A program made the position numbers and the translations under genes. The notes under the pieces were generated by a model. That model was not told the DNA's origin. It worked only from the letters and a program-made list of their open reading frames with translations, and ran no database searches. A DNA stretch of 64,000 bases from Rhodopirellula halodulae (GTDB lineage: Bacteria > Planctomycetota > Planctomycetia > Pirellulales > Pirellulaceae), in the NCBI RefSeq assembly GCF_020966775.1, contig NZ_JAJKFV010000002.1, positions 62,001-126,000 of the forward strand, read 5' to 3'. This document shows, one piece after another, positions 18,335 through 57,502 of the stretch (its first letter is position 1; each line of letters begins with the position of its first letter).

Positions 18335-19720
18335 TCATCTGATCCCGAGTTGTCGTTCCATTTGTTCCAGCGACACGCCTTTTGTTTCCGGTAACAAGCA
18401 CGTCACCCAAAGTGCTTGCAGCACCATCATCAAACAAAAGAAACCGAAGATGATTGCCGGTGAAAACGCGGCGACCACGGATGGAAAGACCAAGGTCAGC
18501 AACGCCGCGAAAATCCAATGGGTGAAGCTGCCAAGCGATTGCCCCGCCGCTCGGTGCGAGTTGGGAAAGACCTCGGAAATCAAAACCCAAATCACCGCTC
18601 CCTGTCCCATCGCATGAGCGGCGATGAAGGCGAAAATGCAGATGGGAACAATCGAAAACGTTTCGGATTGGAATGCGTAGGAACAAATGCCAAGCGACAT
18701 GATGTAGCCGGCTGAACCAATCAGCAACAACGTGCGGCGTCCCAACCGATCGATCAGATACAAACCAACGAACGTGAAGATCAGGTTCGTCACGCCAATG
18801 CCGATCGATTGCAGCAGCGCGGTTTGCTCTCCCATCTCAGCAAGTTCGAAGATCCGCGGTGAGAAATACAGGATCGCATTGATGCCGGATAGCTGATTGA
18901 AAAACGCGACAAGAAACGCGATTGAAATGGGCGTCATCAGGCGACGACTCCAGAACGGTGTCGATGGCGTTTCGGACAAACGGTCGCCCGCCGACTCCGC
19001 GATCTCATTTACCAATCCTTGCACTTCATCCTCCGAGGCATCCGGTCGCAATTGCCGCAGAACCTCTGCAGCGGCTTCACCGTTGTTTTGAAATGCGATT
19101 AGCCAACGTGGACTCGATGGCAATTGAAGGCACATCGCGGTGAATACCAAAGCAGGAATCGCCTCGACAACCAACATCCACCTCCATGCATTTTCCTGCA
19201 TCGCGGATCCGATCACATAGTTTGATGCAAACGCGATTAGAATCCCGAAGACGATGTTGAATTGGAACAGCCCGGTGAGTCGACCACGTCGCTCGGGCGG
19301 AGCGATCTCGGAGATATAAAGCGGTGCCGCAACCGTGGAGATCCCGACCCCCACCCCGCCAATGAACCGGGCGATCATGAACGAAAACACGTCCGTGGCC
19401 ATTCCAGACCAAACAGCAGAAACCAAATACAGAATTCCAATCCACAGCAGCGTCGTCTTCCGACCAAAACGATCCGTTGGCCAGCCTCCGACCAGTGAGC
19501 CCAACACGGTCCCCCAAAGAGCCGCACTCATCGCAAGTCCATGTTGAAGGTCGCCCAGTTCCCAAAGTGACTGAATGGACTTTTCAGCCCCCGAGATCAC
19601 GACGGTATCGAATCCAAACAAGAACCCGGCCAGCGACGAAGTCAAACTCCAGAAGAAGACTCGTTGATTCAATTTGGTTGCCTGTGCGAACGCGGGGTCT
19701 TTCGAGGGGGAACTCCGCAA
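18335..19720 (-). CDS. Sugar:proton symporter, MFS sugar porter family
   Basis: 461 residues with about 12 membrane helices. Sugar-porter signatures are present: DRFGRKTTLL after helix 2, PLYISEIAPPERRGRL in the middle, DRLGRRTLLLIG after helix 8, and PETKGVSLEQME at the C-terminal end. Similar to XylE/GLUT-type permeases; the substrate is probably a hexose or pentose. The first usable codon is TTG at 19720, with an AGGAAG ribosome site 11 nt upstream. An ATG at 19745 is out of frame. It is 21 bp after the NuoM-like gene of the dab operon and probably on the same transcript, although no functional link to carbonate uptake is obvious. Confidence 0.9.
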   Translation of the reverse strand: MRSSPSKDPAFAQATKLNQRVFFWSLTSSLAGFLFGFDTVVISGAEKSIQSLWELGDLQHGLAMSAALWGTVLGSLVGGWPTDRFGRKTTLLWIGILYLVSAVWSGMATDVFSFMIARFIGGVGVGISTVAAPLYISEIAPPERRGRLTGLFQFNIVFGILIAFASNYVIGSAMQENAWRWMLVVEAIPALVFTAMCLQLPSSPRWLIAFQNNGEAAAEVLRQLRPDASEDEVQGLVNEIAESAGDRLSETPSTPFWSRRLMTPISIAFLVAFFNQLSGINAILYFSPRIFELAEMGEQTALLQSIGIGVTNLIFTFVGLYLIDRLGRRTLLLIGSAGYIMSLGICSYAFQSETFSIVPICIFAFIAAHAMGQGAVIWVLISEVFPNSHRAAGQSLGSFTHWIFAALLTLVFPSVVAAFSPAIIFGFFCLMMVLQALWVTCLLPETKGVSLEQMERQLGIR

Positions 19721-19741: not shown

Positions 19742-21238
19742 TCATGTCTCTGGATTCAATCCCTCTTGCTGGGCAACCGTCGTGACGGGCGTGGGACTCT
19801 TGCCTGAAATTTCGCCACGAATGCGAGTGAGTTCTTTGGCGGCGTGATAGCGAGAAGAGATTCCCGGCTGTGGATACAAACCGCCACCCAACAGAAGCAA
19901 AGTCAATAACAACACTGCGAAGCGTTCTGCGGGACGGGCCTTCATCGAGATCGACGATCGATTGTCAACTCCGGTGAAGATCCGGAAGTACGTTTGCAAC
20001 ACCGTGATTCCACACAATGCCGTCGCGACCACCACCAAGGTTCCCACTAGTGGATACACCTCAACAGCACCCTCGATCAGCAATTCCATTCCCACAAACC
20101 CAACCGTCGCTGGAAACCCAATCGACGCCAAACCTGTGAGCAAGAAAAAACCGGCCAGGATGGGCATCTGCGAATACAACCCATGAAACGAAGCGAGCGA
20201 GATGCGCGACAGACGAGCTTCCACGCTGCGAAGCGTGATCCCAAATCCAGTCATCGACATGGCGACAGACAACCACAAACACAGAGCCCCAGTCAATCCG
20301 ATCGGTGTCACCAGTTCCAAACCGACTAGAACGAGCGAGGATTGCGACAACAACAGAAAGCAAAACATTCGACGCGCGTCGACCTGGATCAATGCCATCG
20401 CTGCTGCGTAAACCGCCGTGACCAGCGACAACACAGCGATACTTTGCAAAGCCCACGAAGGTGCAATGGGCAAGACCAACCGCATCACGGCATAGGCTCC
20501 CACCAAAGGCGTCGTGTTCAGGATGGCGGTCCCCAATGATGCTTTGTTGAACACATCGGTCATCCACAAATGCAATGGAAAGACCCCACTCCTCAGCAAC
20601 GCAGCGACAGTCAGCATCGCGCCAGGCACCAGCACGGAACTGCCGCTGCGATCCGCGATGGACAACCATCCATACCCCACCAAAAGCAGTGCCGCAAAGG
20701 TCGCCATGTGTAAACAATATATTCGCGTGCACTGCCTTCGGCGTCGAAGTTCCATGTACGGCGGGATGGTCGAAACAATCAACAGTGCAACCAAAGCCCA
20801 TGATGCACGACAACTAAAGATGGCCAGCAACAACGACTGGGAAACCAACGTCGATTCGAGAGAGAAAGTTCTCGTTTTGGTTCGCAGTGTTGATGAAACG
20901 ACGACCAAATGAATCAGCGATGCCAGCGGTAGTTGAAACGCACTCAACTCATCGATCACCAAGACGTCAGGCGGAATCACCCAGCGAAAGAACGCCCAAT
21001 GATCGTGGGCTTCAAAAGTTTCCATCCAAAGAAAATCGGCGCACTCGCCCAGCGTGAGCAGCAGAGTTGCCAAGCAGAAGAAGATCGCGTGCGTCAGGGC
21101 CCGTTCGCGATCACGCAGCATCCAAACCCAAGCGGCCCCGACGAGCGGCAACAAAATGGAACACTCAATCCATGGAAAATGCAGTTCAGGCAAAGCGATT
21201 CTTTCAGGCTGCGGTGGGGAGATCGGACGGGGAATCAT
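19742..21238 (-). CDS. NuoM/NuoN-like membrane subunit, third gene of the dab operon
   Basis: 498 residues with about 13-14 membrane helices; belongs to the proton-conducting antiporter-like family (NuoL/M/N, MrpA/D). The recognisable core is [38 protein letters not shown], matching the discontinuous helix region of NuoM. At the position where NuoM has AKS before the FP motif this protein has LRS, so the conserved lysine becomes arginine. It overlaps the 3' end of dabB by 35 bp, showing tight coupling. Canonical DAB transporters are described as two subunits, so this looks like an accessory ion-channel subunit. It could instead be a separate antiporter. Confidence 0.8.
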
Positions 21239-22613
21239 TCGCAGCGTTCGCGTGGTTGATCTCGGAATCGGCCTTTTCGCTGCGTGAAAGACTGGATGTG
21301 ATCAACTGCTCCCAACCTTCACACCAGCGAAACGTTCGGACGAAGGGATCCACCAACCAGCGTTGCAAGACTGTGTCCATGAACCCACGTTCGTACCCGA
21401 ACCGGAAACACCATCGCTGAAAAGGCTTTGGCAGCCACCCCAATGCCGTCCCGGAGTTGGGTGACAACGGCGTTCCAATCTTGTTCTCGAGATCCTGATA
21501 GTCACGAATCAGCGTGGGTGCTCGAAGCAGTTGCATCGTTCGCAAAATTGCGTGTCCCATGATGTGAATCAAAGCCAAGTATCGAAGCCCCAATCCAATT
21601 TCCACGACAATGATTCCGACTTGCGTGAGCGACGCAAAAGCAAGTGACGTTTTGACGTCGTTCTGAACGCGAGACATCAACGCCCCCGACACAGCCGATA
21701 CCGCTCCCAAGCCGAGCACCAACCCTTGCAAGGCTACGCTCGCCTCTAGCAGCGGGCTTAAACGCAACAGCAGATAGGCACCGAGGTGCACCGACAACGC
21801 TCCGTAGAAAATCGCGCTGGAAGGCGTTGGCCCTTCCATCGCCCGTGGCAACCAACCACTGAACGGAAACAAGGCCGACTTCCCCGCGGCTCCGATCAAG
21901 AGCAATGCCCCGACCAACAAAGCTTGGCTGGAACTGACCGACACGGATCCATCAGGCCAAATGCTGGAATTCATCAATCCACCGAAGTCCCCCTCGCCAA
22001 CCATGTGGTGCATCGTGATCGCCGCGATCAACAACGCCGCGTCGGACAAACGATAGATCACCCAGACCCGCTGTCCATTGCGCACCGGACTCTCGCGATC
22101 ATGGAAGTAGGCGATCAGCAATGCGGACGACAAACCGACCATTTCCCACCCGACAAACAATGTCTCAATCGTCCCCGCCAGCGATGACCACACCATCCCG
22201 TCAAAGAAGATGGCATAGAACAAAAAGAATCTCGCGAACCCCTCTTCGCGATGCAGGTAACGACGGGTGAACTCGCCCACGACACCGCAAAGCACGCACG
22301 ACAGCATCATGAATGGGATGCTCAGGCGATCAAACACGAACTTCAGATGGAAATGAAACGCTTGTTCGGGAATGGTGACCCAGTTCCCGAACTCGATCGG
22401 CAAGTTGCGTTCGCCCGTGATCAACATCACCGCCAGGACCAATGTGGTCGCAAACAGAGACAACACCACACCCAACTGGTTGAGCCTGACAATCCACAAT
22501 TCGCTCAGCGGCCTGTTCAGCAACTGAGTCAGTCCTAGGACCGCCAGCAAGACGACGGGACTCGCAACGGCAATCGCCCCCAACACCTGCACAAACAGTT
22601 CCTGCTGGTTCAT
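21204..22613 (-). CDS. dabB: DabB, NuoL-like subunit of the DAB inorganic carbon transporter
   Basis: 469 residues with about 12 helices. Homologous to the NuoL/MrpA proton-channel family: [51 protein letters not shown], and the [24 protein letters not shown] block with the conserved lysine and the Pro-rich break. In DAB systems this subunit carries the cation flux that drives DabA to hydrate CO2 to bicarbonate. ATG 22613 overlaps the dabA stop as ATGA, a classic coupling; the frame is open upstream to 22685 only within dabA. The last 40 residues are polar and cytoplasmic. Identification rests on linkage to dabA as much as on sequence. Confidence 0.9.
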
Positions 22614-25600
22614 CGAACGGCCTCCTGCGGTGCAGATTCGTCGATCGATGCAAACCCCAGGTGCCCCCGCCGCCCCCGATACCAATGAGATGACGATGGC
22701 GCACGCGGCAGTTCGTGTTCCGCGATGAGGTGCGGTTCAAAACGTCCCTTGACGTATCGCGAAATCACGGCTGTCTCCGGATCGATCACGGCGACCTGCA
22801 CCCAATCGCCTTGCACCAATCGCCTGATCGCTTCGTTCGCCTGGATAATGCGTGAGAGTCTTTCCGGAGTCGTTTCGATCACAAACAGAATTCGCATTGG
22901 CTCGTGAATTTCAACCATCTGTTGCGAAAGCCCGGGGCGTAGATCGCTGCTGGCCCCGGTCATCACTCCGATCATCGAAACCACGTTGTGAGGCAGCTTC
23001 GAACCGCATCCGTAACCCTCCACGTCCACCGTCGAAAAGTAGTATTCCAAACTGATTCCAGCACAAACAGGAATCGCTGCTTGGAGGATCCGACTCAGGA
23101 TTGAATTGTCATCATCATCCAGTGCCGGGTCATACTCCGTCAGAAATACCCGCCGGTCCATGAACAGACCACGAGTCCATTCGCGTCTTCCTACCGTGAC
23201 CAAGGCGTTGGTCGCGTGGTTGTATTCCGGTCGTGCCTGCGACAAATCTTCTGCCCGTTCTTCGACGTGCTTGAGGGCTTCCCTCGGAGTCAGATCGAGC
23301 GAAGCCGACTCGAAACGTCGCGCACGTTCATGAGCATTGCGTGCTCGCGTCTCCTCGATGTCTCGTTCAATCTCTCGAAACAGATCTCGGTGGGAACGCG
23401 GTAGCCAATCCAGATCGTAGTACTGCACCGCATCGTTGCAGGTGTTGTGATAAGCCCCCAGCACACGGAGATCGTCGGGTAAATCAATTCCTAATGCACG
23501 CATCCGGCGACGAACCCTCGCGTCGTTGGCCATCATCGCAAAGGCTCGGGCGTTCGGCCCACCACGTCCTCCACTGCACGCACCACAGTTGTATGCCGAT
23601 TCATGCGGGTTGTTCAGACTGCCGCTGCCATGACCAAAGAACAAAATGATCGGCGGAAATTCACGAACGATGCCGATGTCCTGCAACACACGAACGACGA
23701 TCGCCGCCATCTCATCCAGGCTGTACCCCATCGCATCGGGTTCCGGTCCTGGATCCTCCGCCAATCGCTCCAAATGCAATTCGGTCGCCGGCGGACTGAC
23801 AAAAATGCCCGCTGAATCTCTCACCCGCGAGGTCAAACGAGGTGCCAGAATGCGAGCGACCATCGGGAACGTTGCCACTGCTCCCAAGACTCCGGTGACC
23901 CAACCGCCCAACATCGTCCGAGAGTGCTGATGCACCTGATGATTGAATCGACCGATACGGCGTCGGCGAATCGCGCGTCGTTCGCTAACATCGATCGCGG
24001 AGAATAGCGGTTCTTCTCGGACATAGTGCTTCGGCGTGACGATCGCTGGACAAAGAGGCCGAAAACGGGCGTGATCCGTTCCCCGATAATTCATCGCTAC
24101 ACCAAAGAATCCCGCGGCGGCTGCGGTCCGACACATCGGCTGCACTTCCTCCAAGTGACGCCGAAAAGATTCCTCGCGGTCATCGATGCAAAAGATAGCC
24201 GCGTATTTTGTTTCCACTGGCGTGGCTTGCTTCTCTCGCCGCCGTTGAGCGTGAACTGCAATCGCGTCCAATGCGGATTGGCGGTACTGACGTTCGTAGG
24301 CCAAGTGCAACAACCGTCGGCGGTGTATCGATGAAAACGAATCCACTTCACCCACCAAACACCGCCACTGCGCTGGCGACATGTTGGTCAATTGCTCTGG
24401 GGTCCATCCACCAAGCTGTGCCAGTTGGAACACGGTATGAACACGCGATCCGGTGCCGAGGTTCGTCTGCGATCCGGCTTGTTTTCGCACACGTTGAACA
24501 ATGTCTGACGCGAGCAACTGGGAATTGCCGAAATGTTGTTGCCCGATGGATTCAACTGCACCTCGAAACAGCAACAACCGAATCGCGAGGTATTCGCTCA
24601 ACGTTCCCGAAGAAACCGATTGCTTGAAAGCCTTGCCTTGCTTCTCGGCTTGCCACACCATGCCCGCCCACCCGCGAAGGGCCAACAACGAATGCGTTAA
24701 AAACGATTCTCGGTCTTGGCCTTCCAAACCAAGCCGCGAAAGCGAACACTCGATGCTGTCGAGAGCGTCCCACGAGGAGTGACAGACTTGCTTCAAGTCT
24801 TCTTTGATCGATGCCATCCACGTTGGTCGCAGGTTCCACGATCCTTCCAACAACAAGGAAAAGGCGCAAGCAAACCCATGCTGACGATCTGGCAACATCC
24901 AGTCGGCAAATCCCTGGTCCAAATAGCTCGCACAGAACCGAATCAACACCTGATCGACCAAGGCATTCGGATTCTCGCCGCAGACCCGACCGATGGATTC
25001 CGCGATTGGAACATCAACACGCGGCAACGCATCTTCCTTCTGCGATGTCGTTTCATCGGCGATGTGCACTCCGCACTCACATAGTTTCCACAAACACCGC
25101 AGCGTGAATCGCTCCCACTGCTCATCGCTCCAACGGTGAATTGGCTTCGACTTGTCAGCAGCCAGTTCGGATCGCACAACTTGAGGCAGAGGAGAAGCAT
25201 GATGCTTGGACGTGCGACTTTCGACTTCGTCCGAACACTCAATGGCCCATTGCCGGGTGACCCAAGCTCGCGTCTGCGTCAATACTCTCTCGCGGAAGGC
25301 CGCCGGGACGTCATTTCGGAATGACCTCAGCAACTGAGTTTCGGCCAACATCCAGTGCAGTTCAGCATCGGGAATTGGCGGCAGCAGTGTTTGAAGCATG
25401 GACAATCGCAGCGTGTACCGCGTCCCAAAACTTGCGACTAGGATGTCCGCGTCGTCTTGTAAATCATCCATCAACACTTCGCGAAGGTCTTCTCGCGTGA
25501 TGCGACCACGCGTGAGTTCTTCGTGGTAACGTTGCTCGCTCAAGTACGGCTCGCACCCAAACAACCGCTTTCCTTCGACCACGGCCTCCTCGAACGGCAA

Positions 25601-25819
25601 TGCCTCCAATGCGTGCAACGTGTTGTGATGGACGAAGATCGAGAGTGGGCCCTGGGTGGGAAGCAGATGAGCCGCGTGTTCAATCGCCCTCGCAATCTCT
25701 TCTCGACCATCCGCTTCTTTCGCGGAACCCCAATCCACGGAATGGGAAACGGATGCATCAGGGGTGGAAGTGGGCATGGATGATGACTTGATTGAAATGA
25801 CGTCTCGCGATTCATCCAT
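22610..25819 (-). CDS. dabA: DabA (DUF2309), carbonic-anhydrase-like subunit of the DAB transporter
   Basis: 1069 residues, a large soluble member of DUF2309 (MpsB/DabA). It forms with DabB an energy-coupled pump that converts CO2 to bicarbonate at the membrane. The four residues reported to bind zinc in DabA, resembling a beta-carbonic anhydrase site, can be placed: Cys544 and Asp546 in [18 protein letters not shown], His730 in [13 protein letters not shown] and Cys745 in [13 protein letters not shown]. The His-to-Cys spacing is 15, as in the characterised protein. N-terminal [11 protein letters not shown] is also a family hallmark. ATG 25819 is used; a TTG at 25825 and an ATG at 25777 are alternatives. 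The promoter looks sigma-54 dependent (25899-25915). Confidence 0.93.
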
Positions 25820-25898
25820 CGACAAACAGGAACGTCACTGCCTGATGAAACCGCGTTCCGCTCTGCCGAAGAAGGTATCGAGCGAAGCTGGGCTCGAA

Positions 25899-25915
25899 CG
25901 CACGTGTTGTGCCAA
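25899..25915 (-). promoter_or_regulatory. Sigma-54 promoter of the dab operon
   Basis: On the minus strand, TTGGCACAACACGTGCG: GG at 25913-25912, GC at 25901-25900, spaced by 10 nt. The -24 element TTGGCAC is perfect; the -12 element reads GTGC rather than TTGC. Expected start near 25889 gives a leader of about 70 nt before ATG 25819. A pair of dyads lies about 157-179 bp upstream, where an enhancer-binding protein would sit. Confidence 0.7.
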
Positions 25916-26062
25916 ATCCATTTGTGAGTCAAAACGGAAGTCCGCTTGGCGAGCACTTCAAACGCGAATCAGCAAGCATTCCCCGCTCGAGTCGACCAAA
26001 CCCAGAAGCTGGAATGCATCGCTGAAACGCTCGTCCACGGCGATGCGATCCAACGCCCCACC

Positions 26063-26098
26063 TGCAGAAACTTGCAGAACGCCCTGCAAGGCTTTGCA
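26063..26098. promoter_or_regulatory. Twin dyads, candidate enhancer of the dab operon
   Basis: Two 14-bp dyads: TGCAGAAACTTGCA (26063-26076, one arm mismatch) and TGCAAGGCTTTGCA (26085-26098, perfect 5-4-5). Centres are 22 bp apart, two helical turns. Relative to the dab sigma-54 promoter the imperfect dyad is proximal and the perfect one distal. The same order and nearly the same distances occur upstream of the SulP gene. Proposed to bind the NtrC-like regulator encoded at 27516-28880. Confidence 0.65.
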
Positions 26099-26139
26099 GC
26101 CGCTCGTTCCGTTTTTCCCTTCACGACCGACGCGAAACG

Positions 26140-27519
26140 ATGTTTGAAAACCATGACGGCCCGAATGTGCGTCGCTTCGCGATTGTCTTGGCGCTGCTGA
26201 GTTTGTTGGCTCTCGGAGTCACCGCGTCGATGCTTTCCAACGTTCGCCATGAGCAAGAAATCTTTGCTCGCTTGACCCAGCACCTTCCCAAGAGCGACTT
26301 GGAAGCTGCCCGCACGCTTTCCGGTGAACTCAGCTTACAAAGCGGTTTGAGTGTGCTGCTGGGATTGAACATCATTGCGACGGCGGTGGCGGTCGCTTGG
26401 GTCGTCCGTGGCTACCTCAGCAACAAACGCACCCTGGAAGACGTCAAAGTTTACTCGGCAGACGTGCTCGCCAGCATGGACGCTGGGGTCATCACCACGG
26501 ACCGGAACGGTCGCATCACCAGCATCAACCCAAGCGGCAAACAACTGATCGACATCGACGATGAGTCCGTCGGCAGAACATTGGACTCGCTCGGAAACCG
26601 CCACGCGTTGCTCGCCGAAATTCGTGAAGAGGTGGCGACCTATCATCACCCCATTCGTGATCGAGACTACAACCTTGATGAGCAAGGTCACCGTCGAACG
26701 TTCCGTGCCGGTTGCACGCTGTTGCAAAACCGTCGTGGAGAAGAGATCGGCACCGTGCTGCATGTGCGAGACGTTTCGGAAAAAGCGTTGATGGAAGAAC
26801 GCTTGAGACGCATGGAACGCTACATGGGGTTGGGTTCGTTAGCCGCCGGACTCCAGCATGAGATCAAGAATCCTCTCAGTGCATTGACGCTCCATATCCA
26901 ACTCCTTTGCGAGCGGTTGGAATCCACCACGCAAGACGACGAGGTCGACGAACTGCTGGATGTCTTGCGAACGGAGATTCACCGAATCAATGACGTCTTG
27001 GATGGTTTTCGCAACTATGCCTCCACCGATCATGTTGGATCGAGCTCGGTGGACGTGGCGGTACTGATCGAACGATTAGTCCGATTGCTACGTCCCCAAG
27101 CGGAACAGCAATCGGTGCGTTTGCACATCGAACAGTCGGTCGAGTTGGTGGGGCTGGTGCAGGGTGACTCCGTCGGTTTGGAACAAGTCCTGTTGAATTT
27201 GGCGCTCAATGGAATGATGGCCATGCCCGAAGGAGGCACGCTCACCTTTCGTTTGTCGCGACAAGAGGAACAGATACGGATCGATGTTCGAGACGAAGGA
27301 AACGGCATCCCCGAAGAAATTCGCCCACGCGTTTTTGATCCGTACTTCACCACTCGCAGCAACGGCACTGGCATGGGTTTGGCGTTGTGTGACAAGATTG
27401 TTCGTCAACACAACGGCAGCATCGATTTTCGAGTGATTGATAGCGAAACCGAAGGCAAACCCGCGTCCGTCGCCGGCACTGAATTCACCGTCTTACTCCC
27501 GCTGAGCCAACCAGAATGA
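26140..27519 (+). CDS. NtrB-like membrane sensor histidine kinase
   Basis: 459 residues. Two membrane helices (about 12-31 and 66-88) enclose a short external loop of about 33 residues, too small for a large sensor domain. A PAS domain (about 105-215) follows, then HisKA with phosphoacceptor His240 (GLQHEIKNPLSAL) and HATPase (NLALNGMMAMPEGG, DEGNGIPEE, GTGMGLALCDKIV). The HEIKNPL motif is typical of NtrB/AtoS-type kinases that partner sigma-54 activators. The next gene, an NtrC-like regulator, overlaps it by 4 bp. Located between the dab operon (divergent) and the SulP gene; inferred to sense inorganic carbon supply, pH or membrane energy state. Confidence 0.93.
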   Translation: MFENHDGPNVRRFAIVLALLSLLALGVTASMLSNVRHEQEIFARLTQHLPKSDLEAARTLSGELSLQSGLSVLLGLNIIATAVAVAWVVRGYLSNKRTLEDVKVYSADVLASMDAGVITTDRNGRITSINPSGKQLIDIDDESVGRTLDSLGNRHALLAEIREEVATYHHPIRDRDYNLDEQGHRRTFRAGCTLLQNRRGEEIGTVLHVRDVSEKALMEERLRRMERYMGLGSLAAGLQHEIKNPLSALTLHIQLLCERLESTTQDDEVDELLDVLRTEIHRINDVLDGFRNYASTDHVGSSSVDVAVLIERLVRLLRPQAEQQSVRLHIEQSVELVGLVQGDSVGLEQVLLNLALNGMMAMPEGGTLTFRLSRQEEQIRIDVRDEGNGIPEEIRPRVFDPYFTTRSNGTGMGLALCDKIVRQHNGSIDFRVIDSETEGKPASVAGTEFTVLLPLSQPE

Positions 27520-28880
27520 CACATAGTGGTTTCCCGATTTTGATCGTCGACGATGAACCGAACATTCGGTCGGGTCTCAAAAAGGGATTGGTCAAAGAAG
27601 CGGATCGGATCGAAACAGCAGCGAGCGCAGAGGAAGGTCTCGAGAAATTCCATTCGGCCACGTTTCACTTGGTGATCGCCGATGTGCGGCTGGGCGGTGG
27701 AATGGATGGAATCGAACTTCTGAAACAACTTCGACAAATTGATTCCGATGTCGCGGTAATCGTGATCACCGCCCATGGAACGGTTGAAACCGCCGTTGAT
27801 GCGATGCGTGCGGGCGCGTTTGACTTCATCTCCAAACCACTCGATTTGAACTTGGTTCGGCAACAGGTTCGCAAAGCCCGCGAACACCGAGAGCTGCGTC
27901 AGGAAAATCAATCGCTGCGAACACGATTGGCGGACGCAGGCGAATTGTCCAACATCATCGGCCAGTGCGCCGCGATGCAGGATGTGTTCCATCAAATTCG
28001 CCAAGTCGCGGCGACCGAAGCCACGGTCATGATTCAAGGTGAAAGTGGATCTGGAAAAGAGCTCGTTGCGAGAGCGCTTCACGATTTGAGCGACCGAAGC
28101 GGCGGTCCTTTCGTCGCGGTGAATTTAGGTGCCATGCCAGAAACACTGTTGGAAAGTGAACTGTTTGGTCACGAAAAAGGTTCCTTCAGTGGTGCGTCGC
28201 GGCAAAAACCAGGCTGCTTTGAACAGGCTGCGGGGGGAACACTGTTCCTCGACGAAGTCACAGAGATGTCCGCGAAAAGTCAGGTCGACCTACTGCGGGT
28301 GCTCGAGTCAAAACGCTTCACTCGCGTTGGGGGAGAACAAGTCATTGAAACCGATGTTCGCGTGGTTTCCGCAACGAACAAATCGGTCCCCGAGTTGATT
28401 CAAGACGGGTCTTTTCGAGAAGATTTGTACTACCGACTGAACGTGATCCCAATCGAAGTCCCTTCGCTTCGACAGCGACGCGATGACATCCCCTTGTTGA
28501 TCGAACACTTCCTTCAGCACTTTTGCACGCGGCATGGCCGACCGATGAAACAGATCGCGCCAGATGCCATGCGAGCATTGGTGGCGGCGCAGTGGCCAGG
28601 AAACGTTCGGCAACTGCGAAACATGGTCGAACGATTGGTGGTCACTCATACCGGGGACGTCATCGATTCCGATGAATTGCCCGGCGACATTCAATCGTCG
28701 CAGCCCGCGGCGGCGAATGCTCTGCCCGCGTCCTTGAGTGAGGCGGTGGAAACTTGCGAGCGAGAAATGATTGCCGCAGTGCTGGCCGAGTGCGATTTCC
28801 ACCGAGAAAATTCGGCGAAACGGTTGGGCGTCAGCGTTCGCACGCTGCACTACAAAATGGGCCGATACGGGCTGCACTGA
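27516..28880 (+). CDS. NtrC-family sigma-54-dependent response regulator
   Basis: 454 residues: receiver (1-120) with Asp56 (VIADVRLG), AAA+ sigma-54 activation domain (about 145-380) and Fis-type helix-turn-helix at the C-terminus (AKRLGVSVRTLHYKMGRYGL). Walker A is GESGSGKE at 175-182 and Walker B GTLFLDEV. The sigma-54 contact loop, GAFTGA in most family members, reads GSFSGA at 222-227; Thr-to-Ser at the contact residue is a conservative change that some active members carry. Starts within the kinase stop (ATGA), so the pair is one two-component system. The two sigma-54 promoters on either side of it are the likely targets. Confidence 0.95.
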   Translation: MTHSGFPILIVDDEPNIRSGLKKGLVKEADRIETAASAEEGLEKFHSATFHLVIADVRLGGGMDGIELLKQLRQIDSDVAVIVITAHGTVETAVDAMRAGAFDFISKPLDLNLVRQQVRKAREHRELRQENQSLRTRLADAGELSNIIGQCAAMQDVFHQIRQVAATEATVMIQGESGSGKELVARALHDLSDRSGGPFVAVNLGAMPETLLESELFGHEKGSFSGASRQKPGCFEQAAGGTLFLDEVTEMSAKSQVDLLRVLESKRFTRVGGEQVIETDVRVVSATNKSVPELIQDGSFREDLYYRLNVIPIEVPSLRQRRDDIPLLIEHFLQHFCTRHGRPMKQIAPDAMRALVAAQWPGNVRQLRNMVERLVVTHTGDVIDSDELPGDIQSSQPAAANALPASLSEAVETCEREMIAAVLAECDFHRENSAKRLGVSVRTLHYKMGRYGLH

Positions 28881-28920
28881 ACCGCGGCGAGAATGCTTTC
28901 GCCAGCGTGAAACACCCCTC

Positions 28921-28955
28921 TGCAATTCTTTGCACACGCCACGCAATCGTTTGCA
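28921..28955. promoter_or_regulatory. Twin dyads, candidate enhancer of the SulP gene
   Basis: TGCAATTCTTTGCA (28921-28934, perfect 5-4-5 dyad) and CGCAATCGTTTGCA (28942-28955, outermost pair mismatched). Centres are 21 bp apart, two helical turns. They lie about 173 and 152 bp upstream of the GG of the sigma-54 promoter at 29098-29114, with the perfect copy distal, mirroring the dab arrangement. Confidence 0.65.
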
Positions 28956-29097
28956 GACTCTGGTACGGGCGTCTCAAACGCTGGCACAATCCGCGGAGAA
29001 ACCCAAAGTAATCGAGGGTAGTTTCACAGCGGAAATTGCGTGATTTCTGAAATTGAAATCGGCCTAGAGCGTTCTTCAGGCCCTTTCCCGAACTGGC

Positions 29098-29114
29098 TCG
29101 GCACGCCCCATGCT
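29098..29114 (+). promoter_or_regulatory. Sigma-54 promoter of the SulP transporter gene
   Basis: TCGGCACGCCCCATGCT: GG at 29100-29101 and GC at 29112-29113, separated by exactly 10 nt, with GGCACG at -24 and ATGCT at -12. Predicted start near 29125, about 52 nt before ATG 29177. The -25 position is C rather than T, a tolerated deviation. Confidence 0.7.
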
Positions 29115-29176: not shown

Positions 29177-30898
29177 ATGAACCAACCTCAGGCCTCCTCC
29201 GCCGACCAGGTCGACAGCACGCCCCAAACGTCCGTTTCGGAACCAATTCCTCGCGGCGACGGGAATGGATTCAAACGTTTTTTAAAAGACGATTTGATCG
29301 CGGGCGGGTTGGTGTTCCTGATTGCCTTGCCACTGTGTTTGGGCATCTCTTTGGCGTCCGGATTCCCCGCCATCGCAGGAGTTTTCACCGCAATCGTCGG
29401 ATCTGTCTTAACGACCTTCCTGAGCAATAGCGAACTCACGATCAAGGGTCCCGCAGCAGGGATGATCGTCATTGTTTTGGGCACAGTCACCAGCTTTGGC
29501 TACACCGGCGGAGCGGATCCGGTGGCCGACATGCAGGCCTATCAAATGGCGCTCGCAGTGGGCGTCGTGGCGGGCCTCGTTCAAATTGCGTTCGGATTTT
29601 TGCGTGCGGGCATCTTGGGTGATTTCTTTCCCACCGCCACCGTCCACGGCATGCTGGCGGCGATTGGTGTGATCATCATGGTCAAGCAGTTGCCGATCGT
29701 CGTTGGACAATCAGCGTCCGGTGAACCGCTTGAGATCTTGCTGGAGTTGCCGCACCTCTTGATGAACGCGAATCCGCAGATCGCACTGATTGGTGTCGTC
29801 TCGCTGGTGATCTTGTTTGGGCTGTCCTATCTGAAGAATCGAACCCAGAACGAATTCGTCGCGAAGTTGCCGGCACCATTGGTCGTGTTGCTGGTTGCCA
29901 TTCCGATGGGCATGGCTCTTCACCTTGCTGACGACCACACCTACACCTTGATGGGAAAGAAGTATTCTGTCGGCGAAGCGGACTTGGTCACCGTGCCGTT
30001 CAATCTGTTTGGTGCCATCACTTTTCCGGACTTCGGCGTGTTCATGAACAGCGAGACTCTGCCAGCAGCGCTGGGCTGGGTGCTGATGTTCGCCTTGATC
30101 GGATCACTGGAGTCTCTGTTGAGCGCAAAAGCCGTTGACATGTTGGATCCCTATCAACGCAAGACCAACCTGGATCGTGACTTGCTGGCCGTCGGCGTCG
30201 CCAACACCGCTGTCGCATTCATTGGTGGATTGCCGATGATTTCGGAAATCGTTCGCAGCAAAGCCAACATCGACAATCAAGCCAAAACGCGTTTTTCAGG
30301 CATGTGGCATGGCATTTTCCTACTGGGTTTTGTCGCCTTGCTGCCGGGATTGATTCACAGCATCCCGCGATCCGCATTGGCCGCCATGTTGGTGTTCACC
30401 GGATTTCGTTTGGCTTCCCCTAGCGAGTTCCGCAGCGTGTATCGAGTCGGACGCGAGCAATTGGTGATCTTCGCCACCACCTTGATCGCCGTCTTGGCAA
30501 CCGACCTGTTGATCGGAATCGGAATCGGAATCGCGACCAAGTTCATCATCCACATGATCCACGGGGTTCCGGTTCGGTCCATGTTCGTCCCATCCCTCGA
30601 GTTCGACGAAACTCAGGAAGACAAAGTCAACGTGCACGCGGCTCAGTCAGCGGTATTCAGCAACTGGATTGGGTTTCGCCGCCGAGTGGTCGAAAAGTCC
30701 CTCCAACAAGGCAAACACTGCACCGTCGACTTCAGCGACGTTCATTTGATCGATCACAGCGTGATGGAAAAATTGCATGAACTGGAAGGTGAATTTGCCC
30801 GCGAAGGGATTGAATTGAATGTGGTTGGCATGGATCATCACATGCCGTTTTCAACTCACCCGATGGCAGCACGCAAGCGTCCGATGGTGAGGCACTGA
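29177..30898 (+). CDS. SulP-family anion transporter, probable bicarbonate uptake
   Basis: 573 residues: a cytoplasmic N-terminus of about 35 residues, a hydrophobic transport domain of 10-14 helices, and a C-terminal STAS domain (about 480-555, DFSDVHLIDHSVMEKLHEL). Family landmarks: DDLIAGGLVFLIALPLCLGI at the start, TIKGPAAGMIVIVLG, and GLPMISEIVRSKANID where the SulP signature occurs. SulP proteins carry sulfate, bicarbonate (BicA) or dicarboxylates. Here the neighbouring dabAB genes, the shared dyads and the sigma-54 promoter favour bicarbonate, but a sulfate or other anion role is not excluded by sequence. Confidence 0.9.
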   Translation: MNQPQASSADQVDSTPQTSVSEPIPRGDGNGFKRFLKDDLIAGGLVFLIALPLCLGISLASGFPAIAGVFTAIVGSVLTTFLSNSELTIKGPAAGMIVIVLGTVTSFGYTGGADPVADMQAYQMALAVGVVAGLVQIAFGFLRAGILGDFFPTATVHGMLAAIGVIIMVKQLPIVVGQSASGEPLEILLELPHLLMNANPQIALIGVVSLVILFGLSYLKNRTQNEFVAKLPAPLVVLLVAIPMGMALHLADDHTYTLMGKKYSVGEADLVTVPFNLFGAITFPDFGVFMNSETLPAALGWVLMFALIGSLESLLSAKAVDMLDPYQRKTNLDRDLLAVGVANTAVAFIGGLPMISEIVRSKANIDNQAKTRFSGMWHGIFLLGFVALLPGLIHSIPRSALAAMLVFTGFRLASPSEFRSVYRVGREQLVIFATTLIAVLATDLLIGIGIGIATKFIIHMIHGVPVRSMFVPSLEFDETQEDKVNVHAAQSAVFSNWIGFRRRVVEKSLQQGKHCTVDFSDVHLIDHSVMEKLHELEGEFAREGIELNVVGMDHHMPFSTHPMAARKRPMVRH

Positions 30899-55114: not shown

Positions 55115-57502
55115 TCAGGTCGGGAAAGGTTTGTTGGATGAATCAAACAGCCGCGACTCAAACGCGACCACCGCGGCAGGCAACAACGTCAAGTTGATGA
55201 TCGCCGATGCTGCCAAAGTTGCTGCGATCAATGTGCCGAAAGTTGCTGTCGGAATGAATGGGCTAGAGATCAAAATGGCAAAGCCAACCACCAACGCGAG
55301 TGTCGCCAGCAAGATCGGCGTAGCAACATCCGTCGCCGCGTGGGCCGCGGCCAGATCCGGACGCATGCCGTGCGACAACCGTCGTTGATAGCCCGCCAAG
55401 AAATGAATGGAGCCGTCAATCGACAATCCAATCGACACCGCTCCGATCATTGCCGACCCCAAGTTCAATCCGCCACCCAACCACCCCATCACGGTCAGGA
55501 CCAACATCACGGGCAAGGAATTGGTCAGCAACGCGGCCATGGCATACCGGACACTTCTCGTTGCAATCGCGATCAACGCCCCCACAAGCAACAGCGAAAT
55601 GATCAGGGCTTGCCACTGGTCACGCATCAAGCTGTCGACCAATCGCGACATCATCACGGAATACCCGGTCACACTGGCGTCCTCATCAAATTCGTGAACG
55701 ACCTGCGTGACCTTCGCAATCAAATCCTGTTTGACATCGCCCGGCATGTGTTCTTTGCTACGCAACATGATCCGCAATTCGCGGTCGATCGGGTCGCTTG
55801 AAAGTTCACCCGATGGTTCAAACGTCAACAAGGCTTCGGCAAACGTCGGAATCGCCGCACGCATCCCCGCCAAGCGAATTTCAGGCGTCACGATGGCCAA
55901 CAGAGGACTCATCGCGGCCACCCCATCCGCATCAGCGAGAGATAAAACCTTGGTCAAGCGATGGGTTTCTCCGTCATCGGCGGAGACAACCTGCACCTGT
56001 CGCAATTGCGTTTGCAGTTTCCGAACTCGCTCCGCGTACTCCGGAGTGATCACCTCCGGGGCGGGTAAAACAACATCCCAAACGCCCGCTCCACCCAGCT
56101 CTCGTTCCACACGTTCGTAGGCCTGGACGATCGGACTGTCATCGCGAAAGTTTTTCAAGAAGCTCGTCTCCGTCGGCAGCCGAGCCGCCAAGAAGGTACT
56201 GACGATCAAACCCAACACCGCCAAGCCAGTCAGCCCTTTTCGATGATGCAAACTCTTGCAAACCAACCACATCATGGATTGGTGAAATCGACCATCCAGA
56301 CTGGCGTCGGCGCTCCCTTCCAACTGCCGCAAAGCCGACTCATCGGATGAGAAACGTCGCCACCCCGGCAATTTCATCATCGCTGCCGTGAACCAAAGCA
56401 GCGACAACACGATGCTGATCGCTGCGATACCGGTCATCGCGCCGAACTGTTTCACCGGCTGGACGTCCGACTGCAACAAGGAAGCGAAACCGGCCGCGTC
56501 AGTTAAACAGGTCCAAACAATCGGCACCGCCAAAAACGCAATCGCTGCCGAATGATTCTGAGACGCCGTCGTCACCCGATCTTTCATGCGGATCCCCACA
56601 TGCATGACCGACGCCACGGTGATCACGGCAATGATTGCGATCAAGATGGTCGACACCAATGACATTTCCATTCCCAAGACGACCATCGACGCGCGCGTCG
56701 CGACGGTGGACCAGGCGATGGTCAATATCGCCAAGAGCACGACTCGGTAATCGCGAAGCGTCAACAGCATCACCAGACTCAGCAAGCCAATCGTGCCCAT
56801 CGCCAAGCGGTTTCCGTCTTGCTCGATCAAGTCAAATGCATCGTCCAGCAACACCGGTTCGCCAACCAACACCGGACGTCGTTCCTGTGGCAACTGCTCT
56901 GCGAGTGCGCGAAGACCTTCCACTGCCGCTTGCGATTGATCGGTGTCCAACATCGCCACAATCGCGGCCGTTTCCTCATCCGGACTGTGTGTGTATCCAG
57001 CAAACATGCCACGAAAGGCGAGAGCGATCGGGTCATCCTGAGACAACATCTTCGATCCAGACGTTGCCCCCGCTTTCGAGTCGCTCGATTCTGATGTCAG
57101 AAAGGAAGCCGCATCGGACAAGCTCATCGGCGGTTGTATGTAGTGGAATGCCTCCACCAATTTCGCGATGGACAGGACGCCTCGCACACCCGGCAAAGAC
57201 TCCGCCTGAGCCGTCCAAGCCTGGCTGCGCCGAACGCCTTCTGCGGTCATCAAATCAGGATCATCGTAGACCAGCATGACGACTAAATTGCCGCCGAATG
57301 TGCGTTGCAAATGCTGATACTGCAGCAGCGTTGGATCATCACTGGCGAACATGGAGGCCAGCGAACGATCCATGCCCAAATCACGTTGCTGGATGGTGAG
57401 CGGGATCGCCAACAAACACCCGATACCGAACAACCACCAACGCCAAGCGACAAGAAAGTGCGCGAGCCCGTGACGTGGTGACGCGATCAACGTGGACTTC
57501 AC
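55115..57502 (-). CDS. RND/MMPL-family membrane transporter
   Basis: 795 residues. Membrane organisation is the duplicated RND plan: a first helix (residues 15-38), a large external loop (about 40-220), helices in 5+1 arrangement (AMGTIGLLSLVMLLTLRDYRVVLLAILTIAWSTVATR), another external loop, and the second helical block (GALIAIATRSVRYAMAALLTNSLPVMLVLTVMGWLGGGLNLGSAMIGAVSIGLSIDGSIHFLAGYQRRL, abbreviated here). It resembles MMPL/HpnN transporters that move lipids or hydrophobic molecules outward using proton force. Substrate unknown. Overlaps lspA by 4 bp (upstream) and abuts the HAD gene. Confidence 0.88.
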   Translation of the reverse strand: MKSTLIASPRHGLAHFLVAWRWWLFGIGCLLAIPLTIQQRDLGMDRSLASMFASDDPTLLQYQHLQRTFGGNLVVMLVYDDPDLMTAEGVRRSQAWTAQAESLPGVRGVLSIAKLVEAFHYIQPPMSLSDAASFLTSESSDSKAGATSGSKMLSQDDPIALAFRGMFAGYTHSPDEETAAIVAMLDTDQSQAAVEGLRALAEQLPQERRPVLVGEPVLLDDAFDLIEQDGNRLAMGTIGLLSLVMLLTLRDYRVVLLAILTIAWSTVATRASMVVLGMEMSLVSTILIAIIAVITVASVMHVGIRMKDRVTTASQNHSAAIAFLAVPIVWTCLTDAAGFASLLQSDVQPVKQFGAMTGIAAISIVLSLLWFTAAMMKLPGWRRFSSDESALRQLEGSADASLDGRFHQSMMWLVCKSLHHRKGLTGLAVLGLIVSTFLAARLPTETSFLKNFRDDSPIVQAYERVERELGGAGVWDVVLPAPEVITPEYAERVRKLQTQLRQVQVVSADDGETHRLTKVLSLADADGVAAMSPLLAIVTPEIRLAGMRAAIPTFAEALLTFEPSGELSSDPIDRELRIMLRSKEHMPGDVKQDLIAKVTQVVHEFDEDASVTGYSVMMSRLVDSLMRDQWQALIISLLLVGALIAIATRSVRYAMAALLTNSLPVMLVLTVMGWLGGGLNLGSAMIGAVSIGLSIDGSIHFLAGYQRRLSHGMRPDLAAAHAATDVATPILLATLALVVGFAILISSPFIPTATFGTLIAATLAASAIINLTLLPAAVVAFESRLFDSSNKPFPT

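Follow-up and report, generated by a model that had tools for sequence, protein, structure and literature searches.

Control of bicarbonate and CO2 uptake is known for the LysR-type regulators CbbR, CmpR and CcmR, and to our knowledge the sensing and regulation of inorganic carbon outside cyanobacteria and autotrophic proteobacteria are poorly known. Heterotrophs with homologues of the DAB inorganic-carbon pump have been described (PMC13144422, partial text), and mpsAB and carbonic anhydrase are reported to be interchangeable (PMC6689103, partial text). Since DAB is able to replace carbonic anhydrase in heterotrophs, it may plausibly serve to feed carboxylation reactions. A known sigma-54-type enhancer is that of Escherichia coli AtoC, whose verified sites at atoD span -184 to -165 and -163 to -144 (PMC3118216, partial text). 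Here, we describe a 64-kb stretch of DNA (the window) from the 6.6-Mb genome of a marine planctomycete of the genus Rhodopirellula, in which genes for an AtoS-like sensor kinase and an AtoC-like response regulator lie between a divergently transcribed dab operon and a sulP gene, both of which are preceded by two tandem dyads and a sigma-54-type -24/-12 box. Where they have to be told apart, genomes are labelled with G-numbers and fetched loci with L-numbers.

Tandem dyads and sigma-54-type boxes at dab and sulP

The candidate enhancer of the dab operon, on the minus strand, consists of a perfect distal dyad (26085..26098), 42 bp before the start of the ntrB-like kinase gene, and a proximal dyad with one mismatch (26063..26076, TGCAGAAACTTGCA), followed by a -24/-12 box (25899..25914, TGGCACAACACGTGCG) that was found by scanning the window and in close relatives. 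At sulP, on the plus strand, a perfect distal dyad (28921..28934) and a proximal dyad with one mismatch (28942..28955) precede a box at 29099..29114 (CGGCACGCCCCATGCT). All four dyads were recovered by the dyad scan, and the distal dab dyad and both sulP dyads also by the genome pattern and the footprint. Dyad centres are 22 bp apart at dab and 21 bp at sulP, the nearer dyad stands 148 and 143 bp from the box, respectively, and for both boxes the two TGCAA-N4-TTGCA dyads are found approximately 145-185 bp upstream. The original prediction had placed dyads and boxes at both units correctly to the base, and its statement that the centres are 21-22 bp apart, with the perfect dyad distal at both promoters, holds in the window. 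Dyads with at most two mismatches occur 56 times in the window against 38 expected, a number reached by 0/100 shuffles, and the loose -24/-12 pattern was observed 76 times against 80 expected, which is the chance level. The pattern TGCAAN4TTGCAN{7,10}GCAN6TGCA has exactly two matches in the 6.6-Mb genome, both of them at this locus, and its reversed control has none. Thus, a single dyad or a loose box is weak evidence, and the improbable part is the tandem arrangement. A lone perfect dyad without a partner is located at 56247-56260 (TGCAAACTCTTGCA).

When related genomes with the same gene order were checked for loss of the dyads or promoters, all five (5/5) turned out to keep both tandem sites and both boxes. 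The order of a perfect distal and an imperfect proximal dyad is present at both promoters in these five nearest relatives (L035, L039, L040, L042 and L045), and not further out. In the alignment of the window with the five relatives, the block TTGGCACAACACGTGC of the dab box is invariant (6/6) in an otherwise diverged leader, and the invariant stretches of the diverged dab-ntrB intergenic region are both dyads, with the TGCA half-sites of the proximal dyad unchanged in 6/6, and TTGGCACAACACGTGC. The sulP region behaves alike, and the core GG..ACG....TGC of its box is kept in 6/6. Moreover, the arrangement stays with dabA in rearranged clusters or when the regulator is unlinked.

The kinase gene (26140..27519, plus strand) encodes an AtoS/NtrB-like protein in which profiles recognize PAS, HisKA (H240) and HATPase domains, the sensor domain being an ordinary PAS, and which has two predicted transmembrane segments (approximately residues 7-35 and 64-93). 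Its Cys192, part of the motif RAGCT in or beside the PAS region, does not vary among the aligned kinases (21/21). The adjoining gene (27516..28880, plus strand) encodes, by profiles, an AtoC-like sigma-54-activating response regulator with the domains of a bacterial enhancer-binding protein: a receiver, an AAA+ domain with Walker A and B motifs (GESGSGKE and LFLDE) and a GSFSGA loop, and a Fis-type helix-turn-helix with the recognition helix SVRTLHYKM. Across 64 related regulators the GAFTGA-type loop reads GSFSGA in 18, GAFTGA in 17, GSFTGA in 11 and GAFSGA in 10, with eight unmatched by the search pattern. Both dab and sulP have what a target promoter of such a protein should have, tandem upstream sites and a -24/-12 box, and rpoN is annotated in R. 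baltica as RB6491 (PMC2754498, partial text). The best NCBIfam matches were AtoC (462.2 bits) and AtoS (251 bits), which do not reach the curated cut-offs of 714 and 646. Judged by its sequence, the regulator is AtoC-like and not AtoC, missing the PRK11361 equivalog cut-off of 714. Membership of NtrC was rejected (TIGR01818, 445.3 bits against a cut-off of 558.6), and the NtrB profile PRK11073 gave 86.7 bits, below its cut-off of 240. The original prediction of an NtrB/NtrC-like pair between two transport units was thus right in location, and its label gives way to AtoS/AtoC as the best profile. Applied with unaltered scoring to atoD of E. coli K-12, the dyad search returned two dyads (9/10 and 8/10) 19 bp apart and a box (11/12) 86 bp downstream. 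The window has the same AtoC-type enhancer, in which two TGCA-N6-TGCA dyads are spaced by roughly 20 bp and followed downstream by a -24/-12 box, and the proximal dab dyad differs from the E. coli AtoC dyad TGCAGAAATTTGCA by one base.

The tandem site in related genomes

In a first set of 60 relatives, a kinase orthologue (E <= 1e-60) was present in 21, and DabA in 33, 18 with and 15 without the kinase orthologue. The strict tandem pattern gave 27 matches in 15 of these genomes, all among the 21 kinase-positive ones, and the reversed control three; a relaxed pattern with three mismatches was noisy (32/60 genomes, reversed control 21/60) and was used for leads only. For the counts at dabA we dropped DabA matches with less than 40% identity, with a start after query residue 60 or with less than 300 bp upstream; in the first set, this removed the second DabA type, L049, L065, L068 and L064. 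Long-type DabA genes with upstream sequence had a tandem pair in 15/17 kinase-positive genomes and in 0/12 kinase-negative genomes. A later set comprised 241 genomes of the family, 74 of which had a kinase match at E <= 1e-70, and 56 new neighbourhoods were fetched, with a DabA match in 29 and at least one tandem pair in 42. After removal of L180 (which shows a pair and an 11/12 box) and L200 (cut by a contig end), and scored as in the first set, a tandem pair was found at all 27 DabA genes with usable upstream sequence (27/27). A box of at least 9/12 was located 85-210 bp from the pair in 15/15 cases of the first and 24/27 of the later set, against 1/15 and 3/27 in the antisense control. Further unlinked DabA genes, from six kinase-positive and 14 kinase-negative genomes chosen among the matches listed, showed a pair and box in 4/6 and a pair in 0/14, respectively. 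A pair was also present in 4/5 named loci, which add no independent count, because these rows overlap others (L170 = G007, L171 = L232, L172 = L230, L173 = G003, L174 = L187, L177 = L208 and L178 = L214).

Over the 241 genomes, the strict pattern returned 68 rows, against four matches for the reversed control, and a strict site was present in 46/74 kinase-positive and 1/167 kinase-negative genomes (Fisher p ~1e-28, uncorrected for kinship), the sole kinase-negative match, in G156, being a short tandem repeat. In other genomes sulP is the next gene after the NuoM-like one, in the same orientation, and none of seven such genes (L037, L043, L048, L050, L051, L053 and L055) has dyads within 700 bp (0/7), as expected if this sulP is transcribed from the dab promoter. 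G011 retains kinase, regulator and sulP in that order, with dyads and box (L106), and its DAB operon is located elsewhere with its own dyads and box (L047).

To see what lies behind the site, rows on both strands and overlapping rows were merged, which left 59 distinct strict places in the 241 genomes, 56 of them in fetched stretches besides the window. A scripted table lists 58 strict places, two of which come from G042, a genome that does not belong to the family. Of these, 44 lie within 900 bp upstream of genes for DabA, SulP, SbtA or DabB-like proteins, although four assignments are weak (L180, L183, L212 and L246; 26-36% identity), and the other 14 have only a regulator gene (five), a porin (two), a CitMHS transporter (one) or none of these (six) as assigned neighbour. 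Most stretches of this table had been fetched owing to DabA or the kinase; less bias attaches to 16 off-cluster stretches, namely the off-cluster strict places not already in fetched loci, minus G237:C57 and G156. In 12 of the 16 the site precedes DabA or SulP (in L248 at approximately 940 bp), in one beta-carbonic anhydrase (L239), and three lie elsewhere. The claim of a self-contained regulon in the original prediction thus stands for the host genome, with two sites at the strict pattern, and not for its relatives, where a wider gene set lies behind the enhancer.

In G031, where dabA lacks the pair, the only SbtA gene in the 23 genomes searched and a porin gene stand beside the kinase-regulator pair, each adjoining a tandem pair, with an 11/12 box at SbtA. 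In G241, with no DabA among the matches listed, a beta-carbonic anhydrase gene with tandem pair and box is located between regulator and kinase. Carbonic anhydrase genes have a pair and a box at 123-137 bp in L225, L226, L227 and L234, and in L230 (= L172) the box is only 55 bp from the pair; no tandem pair was found at those of L058, L060, L236, L237 and L238, and L171 (= L232) in this survey is cut by a contig end. In L180, L189-L194 and L239, the pair stands 22-26 bp before the estimated start of beta-carbonic anhydrase with no box between, a distance that leaves too little room for a sigma-54 promoter. Across the tandem site from this gene, L180 and L189-L194 have DabA. CitMHS-family transporters with pair and box occur in G009 (L161) and in G008 (L160), which lacks DabA; from our own reading of their sequences we take them to be NhaD-like, a name that no profile or search gives. 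Anion-porin genes (PF07396) adjoin the kinase-regulator pair in G003, G009, G018 and G031. In L197, L201, L202, L205 and L104, RND efflux genes stand beside kinase-regulator orthologues with the same tandem sites. In G006 and G008, both of the Rhodopirellula group, a gene for nicotinate phosphoribosyltransferase (L101, 7053-8546; L102, 12100-13803) is divergent to the regulator pair, and the region between them contains a weak tandem site. In a kinase tree of 77 rows, 46 have an inorganic-carbon gene nearby, the RND-pump association occurs in three places, and three changes are needed for either label. A change of target within the family is a possible account of the RND cases.

Proposed circuit and rival explanations

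From these sequence comparisons, it is very probable that the dab operon and sulP are regulated by the kinase-regulator pair through sigma-54, and we consider it likely that this AtoSC-like pair switches on the supply of inorganic carbon. The recurrence of the site before unrelated carbon-supply genes in related bacteria suggests a circuit that controls the supply of inorganic carbon. By analogy with known families, a signal of short supply, presumably low CO2 or bicarbonate or an accompanying state, would cause the membrane-bound kinase to phosphorylate the regulator, which would then occupy the two dyads as an enhancer and activate transcription of both dab and sulP by sigma-54 RNA polymerase. 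The products, a SulP transporter and a DAB pump that hydrates CO2, would increase the bicarbonate available in the cell for carboxylation. Our guess that the kinase responds to carbon supply takes its cue from the four unrelated kinds of target, and we put the chances of this guess not far short of even. More tentatively, the kinase might be a dedicated sensor of inorganic-carbon supply, responding to CO2/bicarbonate or a close proxy and found widely within one planctomycete family. The regulator would then be a general switch for the supply module present in each genome, be it DAB, SulP, SbtA or beta-carbonic anhydrase, and some lineages would reuse the pair for efflux pumps.

Several observations weigh against a circuit for inorganic-carbon supply. 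SulP scores 104.7 bits against an NCBIfam BicA cut-off of 880 and thus does not qualify as BicA, and neither of the two beta-carbonic anhydrase matches in the host genome has a strict site. In the first set, the tandem pair was missed at L056 (G026, which has a second, fragmented DabA beside the regulators) and at L060 (G031); L175 has dabA and both regulators and no tandem pair, and dabA is without dyads in G123 and G138, where the kinase is located beside an RND pump. The three off-cluster exceptions are L240 (regulator, with a heavy-metal ATPase nearby), L243 (CusB-like) and L244 (amino acid permease), and of the 77 kinase neighbourhoods 10 contain an RND efflux pump without any of the carbon genes looked for, and 21 contain neither. 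G006 and G008, which have no DabA, keep the regulator pair beside the nicotinate phosphoribosyltransferase gene. A paralogous regulator (63-64% identity) has the same kind of pair in G002, G004, G005 and G010, and at these loci (L158, L159, L164 and L165) a cytidylate-kinase-like gene adjoins in 3/4. Finally, the rows are related by kinship, and for this reason the counts are less independent than they appear.

The most serious rival keeps the circuit and changes the signal, which could be pH, sodium, membrane potential or a metabolite, as acetoacetate is for AtoS, so that bicarbonate supply would be one output among others, for instance in pH or ion balance. The AtoS-like character of the kinase, the CitMHS-family transporters behind tandem dyads and box in G009 and G008, the anion-porin genes that adjoin the pair in four genomes, and the RND pumps behind the enhancer in some lineages all favour this explanation. 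However, the genes found behind the enhancer in different genomes include those for DAB, SulP, SbtA and beta-carbonic anhydrase, four unrelated proteins with bicarbonate supply as their common product, and another signal is in our judgment a real possibility that falls somewhat short of probable.

The dyads might instead mainly autoregulate the kinase-regulator operon, with dab and sulP as bystanders, since the distance from the dab dyads to the kinase start is 42-77 bp in the window, the sulP dyads are found there 40 bp past the regulator stop, and a regulator gene is the sole assigned neighbour at 5/58 strict sites. This is very unlikely, given that the box points at dabA or sulP, that no box of at least 8/12 precedes the kinase in the window, L035, L039, L040 or L042 (L045 has one of 8), and that the site stays at dabA with the regulators elsewhere in L033, L047, L055, L241, L247, L249 and L256-L259. 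It is equally hard to believe that a different protein binds the dyads, such as a paralogous AtoC-like regulator with the same recognition helix: only one regulator in the host genome reaches E <= 1e-135, and the site accompanies a linked kinase in 46/47 site-bearing genomes. Such a protein would find its support in the helix SVRTLHYKM or a one-residue variant of it, which 61/64 related regulators carry, paralogues included, and in the paralogues with the same tandem site mentioned above. The binding motif is thus common to a wider group of regulators, as the helix shows, and, as the exceptions listed above show, the target of the pair is not always carbon supply. Chance, to which single dyads and loose boxes in the window come close when taken alone, was rejected, and its probability is negligible: both matches in the host genome are located here against none for the control, 950 kb of kinase neighbourhoods contain 61 tandem pairs against 0-2 in five shuffles, and the arrangement is conserved at dabA.

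Transport genes and comparison with known systems

In the dab operon, on the minus strand, the dabA gene (22610..25825) matches PF10070 with 771.5 bits against a cut-off of 25, and in alignment with 9rd0 residues C351, D353, R355, H524 and C539 are identical, which comprise the zinc site and the Asp-Arg dyad, whose roles have been described for DabA2 (PMC13144422, partial text). With this match and the zinc-site residues, the protein qualifies as a DAB pump component. It is followed by dabB for a NuoL-like subunit (21204..22685, start codon uncertain) and, as identified by profiles, by a gene for a second antiporter-type, NuoM-like subunit (19742..21238) that stays after dabB in relatives, recurring in those with a long DabA. 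Downstream of the latter, on the same strand, lies a gene of the sugar-transporter family of the major facilitator superfamily (18335-19720), whose place is kept in several close relatives. On the plus strand, sulP (29177..30898) encodes an anion transporter of the SulP family (PF00916), which is probably a bicarbonate transporter. Profiles thus bear out the gene content given earlier, with DabA, two Proton_antipo_M proteins, kinase, regulator and SulP. The host genome also encodes a second DabA, approximately 29% identical, with its own DabB (G000:C2:291126-293540, L031) and without a strict tandem site. Together with the two carbonic anhydrase matches that lack a strict site, this suggests that the circuit would cover part of the carbon supply of the host.

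The original prediction knew of no published two-component sigma-54 control of DAB systems, and in the open-licence literature we likewise met with no description of DAB being controlled by sigma-54 or by a two-component system; outside that coverage lies the study of enhancer-binding proteins for sigma-54 in Pirellula sp. strain 1 (Studholme and Dixon 2004), which may list the R. baltica orthologue or promoter. Part of the text of Wecker et al. 2009 on R. baltica (PMC2754498) has no match for carbonate, sulfate transporter, NADH or DUF2309, and bicarbonate, inorganic carbon, DUF2309, sulfate permease and Rhodopirellula do not occur in the main text of a 2025 sigma-54 survey (PMC12316311). If the proposal is true, it would provide a sensor, a regulator, defined sites and target promoters in heterotrophs, and make two-component carbon sensing directly testable. 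Because strict off-cluster sites mostly precede inorganic-carbon genes, the enhancer is usable as a marker, and could aid the assignment of SulP, porin and transporter genes whose substrate is not known.

With known DAB/MpsAB pumps, the unit in the window has in common a DabA with intact zinc-site residues and a NuoL-like DabB, and it differs from them by a longer DabA (1071 amino acids), the extra NuoM-like subunit and its own regulatory arrangement. From CbbR, CmpR and CcmR the system differs in both regulator class and sigma factor. The kinase-regulator pair shares with NtrB/NtrC the general domain plan, and the half-sites of the NtrC site are wider apart than those of the window dyads. The closest likeness is to AtoSC and atoDAEB of E. 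coli, where the enhancer likewise combines two TGCA-N6-TGCA dyads with a -24/-12 box downstream of them, although in the window the kinase, with 459 amino acids, is shorter than AtoS, and the distance from dyad to box is larger (143-148 bp against 86 bp at atoD). AtoSC targets short-chain fatty acid catabolism, whereas the probable targets in the window are inorganic-carbon genes, and since the enhancer is of the AtoC type, the novelty of this system would lie in the genes it controls.

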